From assembly GCA_028710885.1 (NCBI GenBank), contig JAQTTG010000005.1, positions 68,443 to 132,442 on the forward strand: DNA of 64,000 bases, given 5' to 3'. Both the position numbers and the translations under genes were made by a program. Source of the stretch: Sulfuricurvum sp. Lineage in GTDB: Bacteria > Campylobacterota > Campylobacteria > Campylobacterales > Sulfurimonadaceae. This document shows positions 50,595-55,575 of this stretch, piece by piece. Under the pieces are notes generated by a model. It ran no database searches. It saw only the letters and a list, made by a program, of their open reading frames with translations, and was not told where the DNA came from. Position 1 is the stretch's first letter. Each line of letters starts with the position of its first letter.

Positions 50595-50825
50595 TTATGA
50601 AAAATGGTCAGTGTAGTCGCATGCAGAATCAATTTCAGGTGATTCGCGTAACTCGGTGCGCAGATCATTGATATAGGTTAATAGAACTTCAGATGAGATA
50701 GAACAAGATTCTGCAATTTGAGCTATTTTATCATTACTGATCTTTGGATCCCGAAGATGTTTAAAATCTTCCGGAGTAATTTCAATTTGAACCGTTTCAT
50801 TCAAAGAGAAAAGAGAGAGAATCAT
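50595..50825 (-). CDS. Small acidic protein of unknown function (nif-region)
   Basis: The 76-residue protein is acidic (many Asp and Glu, ending SACDYTDHFS) with two predicted helices (DFKHLRDPKISNDKI and SSEVLLTYINDLRTEL). It overlaps the upstream gene by four bases and is the last of five minus-strand genes led by a NifX-like gene. I do not recognise it. Size and acidity would suit a small partner or adaptor protein. Confidence 0.6.
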   Translation of the reverse strand: MILSLFSLNETVQIEITPEDFKHLRDPKISNDKIAQIAESCSISSEVLLTYINDLRTELRESPEIDSACDYTDHFS

Positions 50826-51307
50826 GCGTCTAAACTTTTAAGTGCTTCATTGATTTGTACTAATGCCAATGATTTTGCGTTTTCAATCTCTTTGTTATCC
50901 CACCAATATTCAATAATAGCATGTTCAATCTGTTCGATTTGTTCCATTCGGAGATTGGCAAATACTTCATATGAACTAATTTCATCCTTGCTGAGGCCTT
51001 TGGAAGCGGCAAGTTTATCGAGTGTTTCAATAATGCTTTCTTCGAGGGGCTTAGGACTTACTTCCAAGCGTGCATGATCAATCCATGCACGAATTTCTTC
51101 TTCTAAATAGTCATGTCCCCAAACTTGATAGCACAATAGTCGATTAGGACTATAAACAATTTTTTCTTCTTCACTCAATACGTCGGATGTTTTGATGGCA
51201 CCGTCATACAGATAGACTTCAATTCTTTCGTTTTCTCGTAATGTACATGCCCGCTCGAAAGCTGCACGTGCTTGTTTTAGAATATCGCTTCGTAGGTTTT
51301 CATTCAT
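50822..51307 (-). CDS. Protein of unknown function, helical (nif-region)
   Basis: The 161-residue soluble protein is predicted to be helical, with a central beta-like part containing IEVYLYDGAIKTSD, LLCYQVWGHDYLEEEI and a long C-terminal helix ending KSLDA. It is acidic. No domain is recognised. It starts behind AAGGAGT, 16 bases after the 199-residue gene, and overlaps the 76-residue gene by four bases. Its co-transcription with a NifX-like gene suggests a nitrogenase or molybdenum-linked role. Confidence 0.65.
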   Translation of the reverse strand: MNENLRSDILKQARAAFERACTLRENERIEVYLYDGAIKTSDVLSEEEKIVYSPNRLLCYQVWGHDYLEEEIRAWIDHARLEVSPKPLEESIIETLDKLAASKGLSKDEISSYEVFANLRMEQIEQIEHAIIEYWWDNKEIENAKSLALVQINEALKSLDA

Positions 51308-51323
51308 AATTGACTCCTTGGGT

Positions 51324-51923
51324 TTAGTTCATATAAGGTATATCGAGATTGGAATCCCGGTCACTCGCTTCATAGTCGAAAGTAATGACTTCGTGTATTG
51401 AAGCAATTTTTTTCTCCAAAACTATCCTTTGCAATGGATGGAGGAGTGATTTATTAATTGCATTTTTAAGCATACCCCGATAATACATTGTGATAATCGG
51501 ATGCCATTGGTACTGATTTTCATTTAGCCGATCAATAAAGCTATTTAGAACATCACGTTCATCGTTCTCTATGCGAGGAAGTTTACGCATGACATTACGG
51601 ACGAATTGTTTCGTAAAATAAGGTTCACCTATCTTTAAAAGCTCTGATGCCGCATCAATATCAGCAATATTTTCACTGTAGCTGTATGCATAACGAAAAT
51701 GTTCACATACTGCTTCAATGTATTTTGGATAGTGGCGTAACACCATAGCCAAATGGGTTAAATCCTGATCAATCAGAACTTGAAATAGTGTAATGGTATT
51801 TTTCCCCATACTCGCCCAATGCGGTTCACCGCTTTTGAGTGGTTCGCTTTCCAATATCCGTTTATATTGTTCGATCTCGGTAATATCGTTCAATAGACGT
51901 GCGGAATCGGAAAAACTACTCAT
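51324..51923 (-). CDS. Protein of unknown function, all-helical (nif-region)
   Basis: The 199-residue protein has no signal peptide or transmembrane helix and looks all alpha helical, with a repeat-like feel (LTHLAMVLRHYPKYIEAV, then SELLKIGEPYFTKQFVRNV). It ends in an acidic tail (DYEASDRDSNLDIPYMN). No catalytic motif or cysteine cluster stands out. It starts by ATGA overlap with the 75-residue gene. I do not recognise a family. Confidence 0.65.
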   Translation of the reverse strand: MSSFSDSARLLNDITEIEQYKRILESEPLKSGEPHWASMGKNTITLFQVLIDQDLTHLAMVLRHYPKYIEAVCEHFRYAYSYSENIADIDAASELLKIGEPYFTKQFVRNVMRKLPRIENDERDVLNSFIDRLNENQYQWHPIITMYYRGMLKNAINKSLLHPLQRIVLEKKIASIHEVITFDYEASDRDSNLDIPYMN

Positions 51924-52147
51924 GAAGCTATTGTTTTACCATTGTGATAATCCCACAACCTTTTGTAATGGCTATCCAATGCAGAGAGAGTGGAATCAAT
52001 AGTAATAAGCTCATTTGCACGAGTGAATCGTTTGGAATTACTCTCATACCATTGTTGCATTTCTATTTTAAGCGCATTTCGTTTGGCAACAGTTTCAACA
52101 ATTAAACGGCGTATCTCATGCATTTCGGAGGTAAGTATTTCATTCAT
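51920..52147 (-). CDS. Small helical protein of unknown function (nif-region)
   Basis: I start it at ATG 52147 (MNEILTSEMHEIRR), giving 75 residues; an in-frame ATG six codons earlier lies further inside the upstream gene. The protein forms two charged amphipathic helices joined by a short loop. In size and helix layout it recalls the small NifX-associated DUF683 proteins, but the sequence match I can see is too weak to claim. It overlaps both neighbours (eight and four bases). Confidence 0.6.
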   Translation of the reverse strand: MNEILTSEMHEIRRLIVETVAKRNALKIEMQQWYESNSKRFTRANELITIDSTLSALDSHYKRLWDYHNGKTIAS

Positions 52148-52535
52148 GAGTACACCCGCATTCACATGCTCCGGCAGCTGTACCCGGATCTAAATAGAGG
52201 TTAGCATTTTCAGGAGTTACCTGTAATAAACTCTCCGATAATGCGGCGCTAATAGCAGCATCTAAACTCATAGTCTCTTTGCCGAGCCAATAAATCTCCA
52301 TACCCCCACGAACCATAACATGAAAGGGCCCGTCTCCTAAAAATCCATAAAGAGCACTGGATGCACCTTGCTCCAACAAATAGTTGGCAGTTTTGATACC
52401 GTTGCCACACCCTTCGTTTGGAATAATCGTGTGACTTTTACTCTTTGGATCAACCAATGCGAAAAACTTAGCATTACCAAAGAGTTTGGTGCTCATAGTC
52501 TTACCTATATCCGATTCTACAGGTATAGCAATCAT
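52140..52535 (-). CDS. NifX/NifB C-terminal-like dinitrogenase cofactor-binding protein
   Basis: The 131-residue protein has the fold pattern of dinitrogenase iron-molybdenum cofactor proteins (NifX, NafY, NifB C-terminus): MIAIPVESDIG, KLFGNAKFFALVD, EGCGNGIKTANYLLEQGA with a conserved Cys, and a Cys-rich end ACECGCTHE. Such proteins bind NifB-co or the VK cluster while the nitrogenase cofactor is assembled. It heads a set of five minus-strand genes that overlap or nearly overlap, divergent from the NFU-fusion gene. The Cys-rich tail is unusual for NifX and may bind metal. Confidence 0.78.
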   Translation of the reverse strand: MIAIPVESDIGKTMSTKLFGNAKFFALVDPKSKSHTIIPNEGCGNGIKTANYLLEQGASSALYGFLGDGPFHVMVRGGMEIYWLGKETMSLDAAISAALSESLLQVTPENANLYLDPGTAAGACECGCTHE

Positions 52536-52626
52536 TGTATCTCCTTTGCGTGATTTAAACGATTATGCATATTTTGTTCATCGCTTTTAGAATAACAATT
52601 GCATTTGATTACTAAAAAGAGTTGTC

Positions 52627-53517
52627 ATGGAAGAGTTGCGTACCCATTATCACTATTTTAGTAATGAAGAGGGGGATGGCTATGAGATATATAGCTGTGA
52701 TATTCCCGATTTAAAAGGGTATGGGGAAACCTATGATGAAGCTATGGATGATTTACGCAAAAACTTAAAACGTCACGAGGAGAAGGGTATGGAAGCACAA
52801 TCACTGATGGAGAACGCGATCGCAGCATATGATCGTAAAGATTATGGTGTTGCACGATCAATTTGGGAACCTCTTAGCGCTACCAATACGGATGCAATGG
52901 TAAATTTGGGAACGATGTACGTTAAAGGTTTCGGCGTAGCGAGAAATATCTCTGTGGCGTTTACACTTTTTGAACGTGCAGCAGCATACGGTCATGAGAC
53001 AGCCGCTTTTTATATGGGTGGAATGTATGAAAATGGGATTGGAGTCAGCGCAGATAAAGCGGAATCAATCCGTTACTACACGATTGCAGCCAATGCAAAT
53101 ATGCCGACCGCTCAACTCAAACTGGGGACGCTGCTTCGTGATGAAGATGCTTTGGGAGCTATGACGTGGATGATCCGTGCCGCTCATGCAGGGGAAGAAA
53201 AAGCACATGCACTTATTACTTATGTAAGCAATATGTCACATGCAACCGACATAAATGTCGCATTTCGAATGATGGATGAATCCTCTCAACGTGCTAAAGT
53301 CGAGATGGTGATCGCCGAAACCCTCACACCTACGCTCGCGAGTGACGGCGGCGGGATAGAACTTGTCAATTATATCGGTGGTGACACCCCAGAAATTTGG
53401 TTGCGTTATTTGGGGGCCTGTTCAGGGTGTAACCTCGGACCGACTTCGACAGCGGGGATGATTTTAGAGCAGTTTGAAAAAGTTATTGATAAAAAGATTG
53501 TGATTTATCTCTGGTAG
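52627..53517 (+). CDS. Fusion protein: HicB-like N-terminus, Sel1-like repeats, NifU C-terminal (NFU) domain
   Basis: The 296-residue protein has three parts. Residues 1-52 resemble the HicB-like fold (YHYFSNEEGDGYEIYSCDIP, then GYGETYDEAMDDLRKNL). Residues about 55-215 are Sel1-like repeats with pairs such as AMVNLGTMYVKGFGVARN and AFYMGGMYENGIGVSAD. Residues about 225-296 are an NFU domain with LTPTLASDGGGIELV and a CSGC motif (C265, C268) in ACSGCNLGPTST, where NifU normally has CxxC for cluster handover. It is probably an iron-sulfur carrier joined to a protein-protein interaction module. It opens the plus-strand nif-related gene run. I do not know this architecture from the literature. 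Confidence 0.72.
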   Translation: MEELRTHYHYFSNEEGDGYEIYSCDIPDLKGYGETYDEAMDDLRKNLKRHEEKGMEAQSLMENAIAAYDRKDYGVARSIWEPLSATNTDAMVNLGTMYVKGFGVARNISVAFTLFERAAAYGHETAAFYMGGMYENGIGVSADKAESIRYYTIAANANMPTAQLKLGTLLRDEDALGAMTWMIRAAHAGEEKAHALITYVSNMSHATDINVAFRMMDESSQRAKVEMVIAETLTPTLASDGGGIELVNYIGGDTPEIWLRYLGACSGCNLGPTSTAGMILEQFEKVIDKKIVIYLW

Positions 53518-53527
53518 GAGGTTTGCG

Positions 53528-53974
53528 GTGAATACCTTTAGTGCAAAAGTCGAAGATATCAAAAGTGACCCGTTCTTTAGTTGCATTACGGTGCGTGCCA
53601 ATGATATGGACCTTAAACTTCTTAAAACGGAAGTACCCAAATGGCTCCATATCGGTGATGAGGTTGAATGTCGTGTTCAAGAAGCCGCTATTGCAATTTG
53701 TAAAGGTGCTAAAGAGGGAAGTGTGTCGATCGAAAATCACCTCTCTGGAGAATTGCAACATTTTCGTAAGGGGATTGTTCTAAGTGAAGTGAGTGTTGAT
53801 ACACCCTGTGGAAAGCTCAATTCTTTAATTACGACTGATGCATTCGAGAGGATGGAGCTTTGTGAAGGGTGTAATGTGACATTGTTATTAAAAGCAGTGG
53901 ATATTAAACTCTCTCCGCTTATCGATTCAATCTCGTATGAAAAATGCAAAGAAAATTTATATCAAGCCAACTAA
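53528..53974 (+). CDS. Di-TOBE/Mop molybdate-binding protein
   Basis: The 148-residue protein holds two beta-barrel units of about 65 residues that resemble TOBE/Mop domains: NTFSAKVEDIKSDPFFSCIT to VQEAAIAICK, and GELQHFRKGIVLSEVSVDT to LLKAVDIKLSP. The endings EAAIAI and KAVDIKLS are the usual strand that lines the oxyanion site. Di-Mop proteins bind molybdate or tungstate for storage or sensing. It starts at GTG, 10 bases after the fusion gene, and precedes a ferredoxin gene by 10 bases. Cysteines in EGCN and PCGK are not part of a known site. Confidence 0.72.
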   Translation: MNTFSAKVEDIKSDPFFSCITVRANDMDLKLLKTEVPKWLHIGDEVECRVQEAAIAICKGAKEGSVSIENHLSGELQHFRKGIVLSEVSVDTPCGKLNSLITTDAFERMELCEGCNVTLLLKAVDIKLSPLIDSISYEKCKENLYQAN

Positions 53975-53984
53975 GGAGTAAATT

Positions 53985-54359
53985 ATGGCTGTATTAATAA
54001 CTGATTCTTGTATTAACTGTGACGCATGCGTCGAAGTATGTCCTGTAGGGGCGATTGCTAGTGAAGGTGATTCACCTCGTGATGATTGGGAATATACGTA
54101 TGTAAAACCGGAAAAATGTATTGAGTGTGTCGGTCATGCTGAAGTACCTGCATGTGCTGCTGAATGTCCAACTGAGGGATGTATCGTATGGGATATGCCA
54201 TATACGGCTGATTACAATGATTATTATGTCAATAGCTCAGAGTATGTTATCGGTTCTAGCAAAAAACGCGGTGTTTTGACTCCGGAAGTTTCTCCACAAA
54301 CATTTCGTGATGATATCTCAATTGCTGCGCGCGAAGCGCGTGAAGCGGTAGCGGTCTAA
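53985..54359 (+). CDS. Nif-type 2[4Fe-4S] ferredoxin (first copy)
   Basis: The 124-residue protein has C9-x2-C12-x2-C15-x3-C19 (CINCDACVEVCP) and a second cluster set CIECVGHAEVPACAAECP with a long insertion between the second and third Cys, the layout of FdxN/FdxB-like ferredoxins linked to nitrogenase and NifB. A C-terminal extension of about 50 residues follows. It probably donates electrons to nitrogenase or cofactor synthesis. It lies 10 bases before nifX and is clearly related to the second ferredoxin at 54830. Confidence 0.85.
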   Translation: MAVLITDSCINCDACVEVCPVGAIASEGDSPRDDWEYTYVKPEKCIECVGHAEVPACAAECPTEGCIVWDMPYTADYNDYYVNSSEYVIGSSKKRGVLTPEVSPQTFRDDISIAAREAREAVAV

Positions 54360-54369
54360 AGGATAGGTC

Positions 54370-54753
54370 ATGCTTATCGCGTTTGCTTCATCGGACGGTG
54401 TAACAGTCAATCAGCATTTTGGATGGTCGAAGAGTTTTGAACTTTATCGTATTACTGAAGATAATGCAGAGTTTATTAAAACGCTTGACAGTTCGCAAGA
54501 TGCGATTGAAGATGAACACGAAAAACTTGCCTATAAAATCAGTACGGTCAAAGAAGCAGACATTATGTACTGCTCTCAAATCGGACCGACAGCATCAAAA
54601 ATGGTGCTGGCTTCTAAAATATATCCGATGCGCTCAGGGGAAAATGATCGAATCGATGAAACGATCGTAAAACTTCAAGAGCTTTTGCTTGGCAATCCGC
54701 CGCCGTGGTTGCAGCGTATTGTTCATACGTCTAAAGATAATAACGCTATCTGA
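54370..54753 (+). CDS. nifX: Nitrogenase cofactor carrier NifX
   Basis: The 127-residue protein has the NifX/NifB-C pattern: MLIAFASSDGVTVNQHFG, ELYRITEDNAEFIKTL, and later ADIMYCSQIGPTASKMVL with IYPMRSGENDRIDE. NifX holds cofactor precursors between NifB and NifEN. It lies between two ferredoxin genes, with a pair of stem-loops overlapping and following its stop codon. Compared with the NifX-like protein at 52140 it has the classical HFG start and no Cys-rich tail. Confidence 0.85.
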   Translation: MLIAFASSDGVTVNQHFGWSKSFELYRITEDNAEFIKTLDSSQDAIEDEHEKLAYKISTVKEADIMYCSQIGPTASKMVLASKIYPMRSGENDRIDETIVKLQELLLGNPPPWLQRIVHTSKDNNAI

Positions 54754-54829: not shown

Positions 54830-55228
54830 ATGTCTGTAATTATCAATGATACCTGTATCACATGTGATGCGTGTTTACAACAATGTCCCGTTAATGCGAT
54901 TATGGATGATATTTCGAATCCTACGGGTAAAAAACAGTACTATGTTCAACCGGAAAAATGTGTTGAATGTGTCGGTATTTATGACGATCCGCAATGTGCT
55001 GCTATTTGCCCTAGTATCGGATGTATCACTTGGGATATGCCTTTTACTGCAGAGTTTGATCAATACTTCCGAAATGAAGAGGTTTACAAGCTCGGAGTGA
55101 ATAAATCGGGTACTCTTCGTTCTCCTGCATATAAAGAAAAAAGCTATCGTAAAGATATTTTAATCGAAGAACGGGGAATCGGTAAACTCGTCCAAGAAGA
55201 GCCTGAAAATCTTGAAGAAGTTGGATGA
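54830..55228 (+). CDS. Nif-type 2[4Fe-4S] ferredoxin (second copy)
   Basis: The 132-residue protein has CITCDACLQQCP and CVECVGIYDDPQCAAICP, the same two-cluster layout with insertion as the first copy, and shares the downstream CITWDMPFTAEFDQYF segment with that copy's CIVWDMPYTADYNDYY. The C-terminal 40 residues differ and are charged. A duplication of one ancestral gene around nifX is the simplest reading. It starts behind AAGGAG and overlaps the next gene by four bases. Confidence 0.85.
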   Translation: MSVIINDTCITCDACLQQCPVNAIMDDISNPTGKKQYYVQPEKCVECVGIYDDPQCAAICPSIGCITWDMPFTAEFDQYFRNEEVYKLGVNKSGTLRSPAYKEKSYRKDILIEERGIGKLVQEEPENLEEVG

Positions 55229-55575
55229 GGATGTCTTCGATTGCTAAGGTTGCCGGAAGCTTAGATGTATTTAGTCGAGATTGTGCGGTAACGGTAGCAT
55301 TGAAAATAACTGATGATTCATGTAAAATGGATGAGGAACAGCGCTCAATATTTATGGCTCTCTATGATGCATTGCCATCATATAAAAGTGAAATCTTTGA
55401 TGAGGAAGTTTACGCTTTGATTTCTCAAGCGCGTGATTTTCCGAGTGCCTCTTTGTTTGCTCGTATTAAAAAAGAGCGTGAAATGGCCATGGCCATTATC
55501 ACTCAAGAGAAAATGAAATCTTTTAAAGCCTCTGTTCGGGCTTCTTTGTTGATCGCTCAGCTAATACAAGAGTGA
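55225..55575 (+). CDS. Protein of unknown function at the end of the nif-type gene run
   Basis: The 116-residue protein overlaps the second ferredoxin gene by four bases. It starts MRMSSIAKVAGSLDVFSRDC and is mostly helical after residue 35, ending AFKASVRASLLIAQLIQE-like with a basic-hydrophobic helix. Two Cys (C20 and one near C33) are present but do not form a known motif. No family is recognised. Operon position suggests a role with the ferredoxin or cofactor assembly. Confidence 0.6.
   Translation: MRMSSIAKVAGSLDVFSRDCAVTVALKITDDSCKMDEEQRSIFMALYDALPSYKSEIFDEEVYALISQARDFPSASLFARIKKEREMAMAIITQEKMKSFKASVRASLLIAQLIQE

Follow-up and report, generated by a model that had tools for sequence, protein, structure and literature searches.

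The window, the whole stretch of 64 000 nucleotides that was analysed, carries on its forward strand a gene for a 296 aa protein in which a HicB-like N-domain, Sel1 repeats and a C-terminal NFU domain are joined (the Sel1-NFU gene). The ORF and its coordinates were correct. The gene, its parts and its neighbours are listed in order of position.

50822-51307, 51324-51923 and 51920-52165, − strand: three genes recurring beside the Sel1-NFU gene in Sulfuricurvum/Sulfurimonas-type loci
52140..52535, − strand: NafY/NifX-like (Nitro_FeMo-Co) protein, divergent (PF02579, 29.9 bits); neighbour in 31 of 49 loci
52536-52626: divergent intergenic region
52627-53517, + strand: Sel1-NFU gene ORF, 296 aa
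52627..52788, + strand: HicB-like N-domain, residues 1–54, confined to the predicted long form
52777..52791, + strand: internal Shine–Dalgarno (SD) sequence GAGGAGAAGGGT and in-frame ATG (codon 55, M55, nt 52789-52791), kept in HicB-bearing relatives
52810..53226, + strand: Sel1 repeat region, about residues 62–200
53299..53490, + strand: NFU domain, residues 225–288, with the CxxC motif C265/C268 at nt 53419-53430
53528..53974, + strand: Mop/TOBE (molybdate-binding) protein, the next gene after 10 bp (PF03459, 31 bits; TIGR00638, E 4.5e-10)
53985..54359, + strand: FdxN-like 2[4Fe-4S] ferredoxin (Fer4 families)
54370..54753, + strand: NifX (TIGR02663, 110.8 bits, cut-off 112; PF02579, 59.3 bits)
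54830..55228, + strand: second FdxN-like ferredoxin, in the same sequence cluster as the first
55225-55575, + strand: 116 aa gene with a 4 bp overlap with the second ferredoxin, without a family match; conserved at the operon end in about 30 loci

In a Pfam search with the whole protein, the Sel1 and NFU parts exceeded their cut-offs (PF08238, 57.1 bits against 30.7; PF01106, 39.5 bits against 27). Two Sel1 repeats lay above the Pfam cut-off and about four helical hairpins were present in the AlphaFold2 model; Sel1 structures, with their helical repeat fold, were the top fold matches for this part. The model had a pLDDT of 89.9 for the whole protein, and the CxxC loop was its region of lowest confidence (pLDDT 63–74). 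All three parts were under purifying selection (dN/dS 0.056 for the HicB part, 0.098 for Sel1 and 0.036 for NFU), with the NFU domain evolving slowest.

The HicB-like part gave no Pfam match over the cut-off in the whole-protein search of the ORF, although PF15919 (HicB) matched below threshold at the correct position (10.7 bits here and 12.2 bits in a relative; cut-off 27). When a profile built from 22 N-domains was compared with PDB sequences, the best matches were HicB antitoxins (E 2.9e-4 and 3.3e-4), and two further HicB matches were found at E 0.014–0.025 amid unrelated weak matches. Modelled alone with AlphaFold2, the N-domain was predicted to adopt a β-β-β-α topology (pLDDT 88.6). Foldseek placed HicB N-domains on top (probability as high as 1.00, though with a weak E of 0.16), and a structural aligner ranked the B. 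pseudomallei HicB 6g1c first (Z 7.4, 1.2 Å over 54 residues, 30 % identity). Other folds, including dsRBDs, trailed HicB by no more than about one Z unit, so that the fold of the N-domain alone was not specific; the predicted HicB identity is singled out by the sequence profile and not by the fold. The earlier note had named HicB-like, Sel1 and NFU parts within one protein and called for a check with HMMs. That composition was confirmed, with Pfam sufficing for Sel1 and NFU; the HicB-like part fell under the Pfam threshold and was recovered by the N-domain profile and the predicted structure.

The N-domain shares the N-terminal fold of HicB antitoxins, but the protein differs from them in having neither a DNA-binding C-domain nor a HicA partner. 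No match to the HicA toxin family (PF07927) was found anywhere in the genome at E up to 1, and an antitoxin function for the N-domain was rejected on this ground. A HicB-type antitoxin or RNA-binding regulator that incidentally carries Sel1 and NFU domains would account for the fold of the N-domain and for the dsRBD-like folds scoring shortly below HicB. We nevertheless give this explanation almost no credence in view of the missing HicA, the strict nif linkage described below and the absence of the HicB part from 48 of 94 relatives.

Within the NFU domain, the CxxC motif that had been read as retained (C265 and C268) was invariant in 45 aligned relatives, and all relatives retained it along with the Nfu-carrier motif DGG. 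The sequence that follows, NLGPTST, had been considered unusual, which held only in part. The corresponding stretch is CNGCASSSTGT in one NifU protein of the same genome and CMSCSMNTTTT in a second, both with threonines at the same +5/+7 spacing; in contrast to this T-x-T of NifU, the stand-alone Nfu of the same genome reads CIGCSSSGNTLK. Judged by sequence, the CxxC-x4-T-x-T form occurs in Campylobacterota NifU too and NLGPTST is not odd in itself.

The protein thus resembles the C-terminal (Nfu) domain of nitrogenase NifU (PF01106) in its CxxC, its DGG, the T-x-T spacing of Campylobacterota NifU and its nif context, but it has neither the NifU_N scaffold nor the central [2Fe-2S] domain and carries Sel1 and HicB-like parts instead. 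It is not NifU proper, as the full NifU model TIGR02000 gave 23.6 bits against a cut-off of 273.3 with the match limited to residues 214–282, and in a tree of NFU domains, read with long-branch caveats, the Sel1-fused family formed one group separate from NifU. Like NfuA and stand-alone Nfu carriers, it places a C-terminal carrier domain behind a different N-terminal module; that module is a degenerate A-type N-domain in NfuA, however, and the score of 24.6 bits to TIGR03341 (cut-off 269.35) indicates that the protein is not NfuA either.

A survey of public genomes showed that the family recurs and is not a one-off: it was found in 53 of 397 genomes of the class, comprising 52 strong matches (E below 1e-25) and one shorter, divergent copy in genome G134 that was confirmed by profile search. 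All 53 genomes were among the 77 positive for the nifD family (the match in G368 being under the curated cut-off) and none among the other 320 (Fisher p 1.6e-47, which overstates the independent evidence as the genomes are related). The fusion was absent from 24 nifD-positive genomes, about half of them from one genus, and the gene is therefore not essential to nitrogenase in general. A search for a hidden fusion in the nifD-positive genomes without the family yielded only separate Sel1 proteins and NifU-length proteins, the exception being G134, already counted. Scanning one genome per species with a single motif pattern, a search that is not exhaustive and could miss divergent relatives elsewhere, gave 71 relatives; every record with a named lineage belonged to Campylobacterota, and a few were titled only ‘bacterium’. 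On plasmids, the best matches listed were annotated as Sel1/TPR or other proteins, and an NFU part was seen in none of them. Within these searches, the family was confined to Campylobacterota and to genomes with nitrogenase genes. The literature search returned no description of the HicB-Sel1-NFU architecture, in agreement with the earlier note, which knew of no characterised protein with this domain order.

The Sel1-NFU gene sits in a FeMo-co module. NifX was encoded within 4 kb in 43 of the 49 loci, and in 44 the next gene encoded NifX (24), TOBE (13) or FdxN (7). The stop codon of the Sel1-NFU gene overlaps the nifX start by 4 bp in most Arcobacter-type genomes, where the series often runs onward through NifX, a flavodiiron-like protein, NifB and NifV (names without an HMM run were assigned by sequence reading). 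Genes for nifB and nifD lie about 62–69 kb downstream of the Sel1-NFU gene on the same contig. In nitrogenase maturation, NifU gives [4Fe-4S] clusters to NifB, NifX takes NifB-co to NifEN, NafY is a FeMo-co carrier and FdxN/NafV aids NifB-co formation (PMC10865832, PMC13128457).

With NifX as the tightest and most constant neighbour, the 4 bp overlap in many genomes and a NafY-like gene divergent from the Sel1-NFU gene, the protein might instead be a scaffold or chaperone of NifX/NafY cofactor trafficking, in which Sel1 would hold NifX or NifEN and the NFU domain would mainly dimerise or sense cluster status rather than act as a donor. The retention of the CxxC and of the Nfu-carrier DGG in all relatives and the slow evolution of the NFU domain argue for a donor, and we consider the scaffold unlikely. 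More improbable still is a redox, iron or oxygen sensor that would regulate nif maturation through loss of the NFU-bound cluster; an Fe-S domain fused to two interaction modules and the nearby flavodiiron-like gene of Arcobacter-type loci would suit such a role, but the protein has no DNA-binding or signalling domain and its operon neighbours are assembly proteins.

Several minor features were seen around the gene. The NafY/NifX-like protein (52140-52535, − strand) ends in a tail rich in Cys, CECGC here and CSCGC in relatives, which is a possible extra metal site. The products of the three genes at 50822-51307, 51324-51923 and 51920-52165 had no Pfam or NCBIfam match, and these genes are candidate nif accessory genes. 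A block ATGCATnTTnnnTTC..TTAGAACGGCAATTGCA in the divergent intergenic region was conserved in relatives; as a nif-regulon motif it was dropped, its loose matches being scattered near unrelated genes and not clearly repeated at other nif genes. The same region held no match to a sigma-54 −24/−12 promoter, and window-wide matches equalled chance.

HicB was present in 46 and absent in 48 of the 94 distinct relatives. Its presence changes 13 times on the tree of the Sel1-NFU part, at least six of these changes being forced by well-supported branches, on a tree that cannot itself tell gain from loss. The HicB-less proteins start at a matching Met (MEAxSLM in Sulfuricurvum, M(K/S)HxEAL in Arcobacter-like and MTTxF in Sulfurovum genes), at the position of the internal start, which is their only one. 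In L094, the sister of a HicB-bearing gene, exactly the HicB stretch is absent and AGGAGAAGGGT-ATG is retained. The comparison indicates that the HicB domain is dispensable and that the constant core consists of the Sel1 end and NFU. No separate HicB-like ORF was found near the short-form genes; the sole non-fused HicB-like match was a split copy in a MAG (L134).

Every intact HicB-bearing copy examined possessed an in-frame internal start with an SD exactly at the HicB/Sel1 junction. Here, the internal site GAGGAGAAGGGT-ATG (ATG at 52789) pairs with the anti-SD at −8.9 kcal/mol, compared with −2.4 kcal/mol at the first ATG. Pairing at the internal site reached −5.7 kcal/mol or better in each of the 26 HicB-bearing genes tested; as a control, only 1–10 % of 3505 internal ATGs in neighbouring genes were as strong as the junction site. 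When the upstream codons were recoded synonymously with local codon usage, SD strength exceeded the amino-acid requirement in Sulfuricurvum (p 4.5e-5) and Sulfurimonas-like genes (p 0.007) but not in Arcobacter-like genes (p 0.40), the genes within the test being related and not fully independent. The synonymous sites are close to saturated, since mean dS within Sulfuricurvum was about 1.5–1.7. Encoded residues alone yield an SD in the Arcobacter-like genes. Across the genes of the recoding test, 269 further internal ATGs served as a control, which was flat.

These observations could also be explained by a single product, with an internal start that goes unused in HicB-bearing species and arises by chance from a Glu/Lys-rich or Glu-Gly linker, the short homologues having begun at the nearest usable ATG after loss of the N-domain. 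The SD is often encoded by linker residues alone, the recoding tests are weak for single genes and the Arcobacter-like group shows no excess, and we regard this account as doubtful while giving it appreciable weight. It does not readily explain the SD excess seen in two groups when the control was flat, the agreement in position across three clades or the conservation of AGGAG although the encoded residue varies between E, K and Q. The same applies to L115, in which Val replaces Met at the internal start, yet the codon is GTG, still a start codon, and AAGGAG is retained. The gene probably makes a second, shorter, HicB-less product from the internal start; the earlier note had noticed neither this nor the absence of HicB from about half of the relatives. 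Where the HicB part is present, it evolves under strong purifying selection (dN/dS 0.056), and the first start is therefore presumably used as well.

We lean towards reading the protein as a nitrogenase-dedicated Fe-S cluster carrier that is translated from two in-frame starts into a long and a short form. The dedicated carrier role is well supported by context, the genetic context being its strongest support. The earlier note had proposed a carrier guided to a client such as NifB or a ferredoxin; dedication to nitrogenase is now favoured by context (the 53 of 53 nifD-positive genomes, the co-operonic nifX and FdxN-like genes and, in some genomes, a close nifB), and any specific client can be named only provisionally. 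In other Nfu proteins two NFU domains pair and a [4Fe-4S] cluster is held between their CxxC motifs. The same pairing would be expected here, with the Sel1 region docking the carrier on a partner in FeMo-co assembly (NifB, NifX, NifEN or the FdxN ferredoxins), where it would hand its cluster to nitrogenase maturation. A comparable arrangement is known in NafY of Azotobacter vinelandii, a carrier directed to its nitrogenase client by a helical domain of its own (PMC13128457 and its reference 19), but NafY holds FeMo-co on a NifX-like domain and is targeted by a sterile-alpha-motif domain.

With two starts in use, the HicB-like domain would be present in the long form and absent from the short Sel1-NFU form, and it may be an optional adaptor or regulatory module of the long product rather than an antitoxin. 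More tentatively, and as a proposal that we rate plausible though short of probable, long and short forms might pair in NFU dimers bearing none, one or two HicB adaptors, the isoform ratio steering or regulating cluster delivery to FeMo-co assembly. In-frame internal starts between domains occur in SpaO, AerR, Cas11b and endolysins (PMC13059759, PMC6199135, PMC11899642, PMC9430671), but neither Fe-S carriers nor nif proteins are among them. With a conserved internal start, the present protein would be an unusual case of an Fe-S carrier with two isoforms, and their ratio is directly testable. A key step in assembling nitrogenase, and in attempts to transplant it, is to bring simple [4Fe-4S] clusters to NifB, NifEN and their ferredoxins; a nif-only Campylobacterota carrier with a built-in docking platform is a concrete candidate for this step.

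Short proteins of 105–110 aa ending in APACxxCxDxxxCFxC (L121:3952-4284 and similar), with the look of a shortened NifQ by eye only, were often encoded close to the Sel1-NFU/NifX pair in other genomes.
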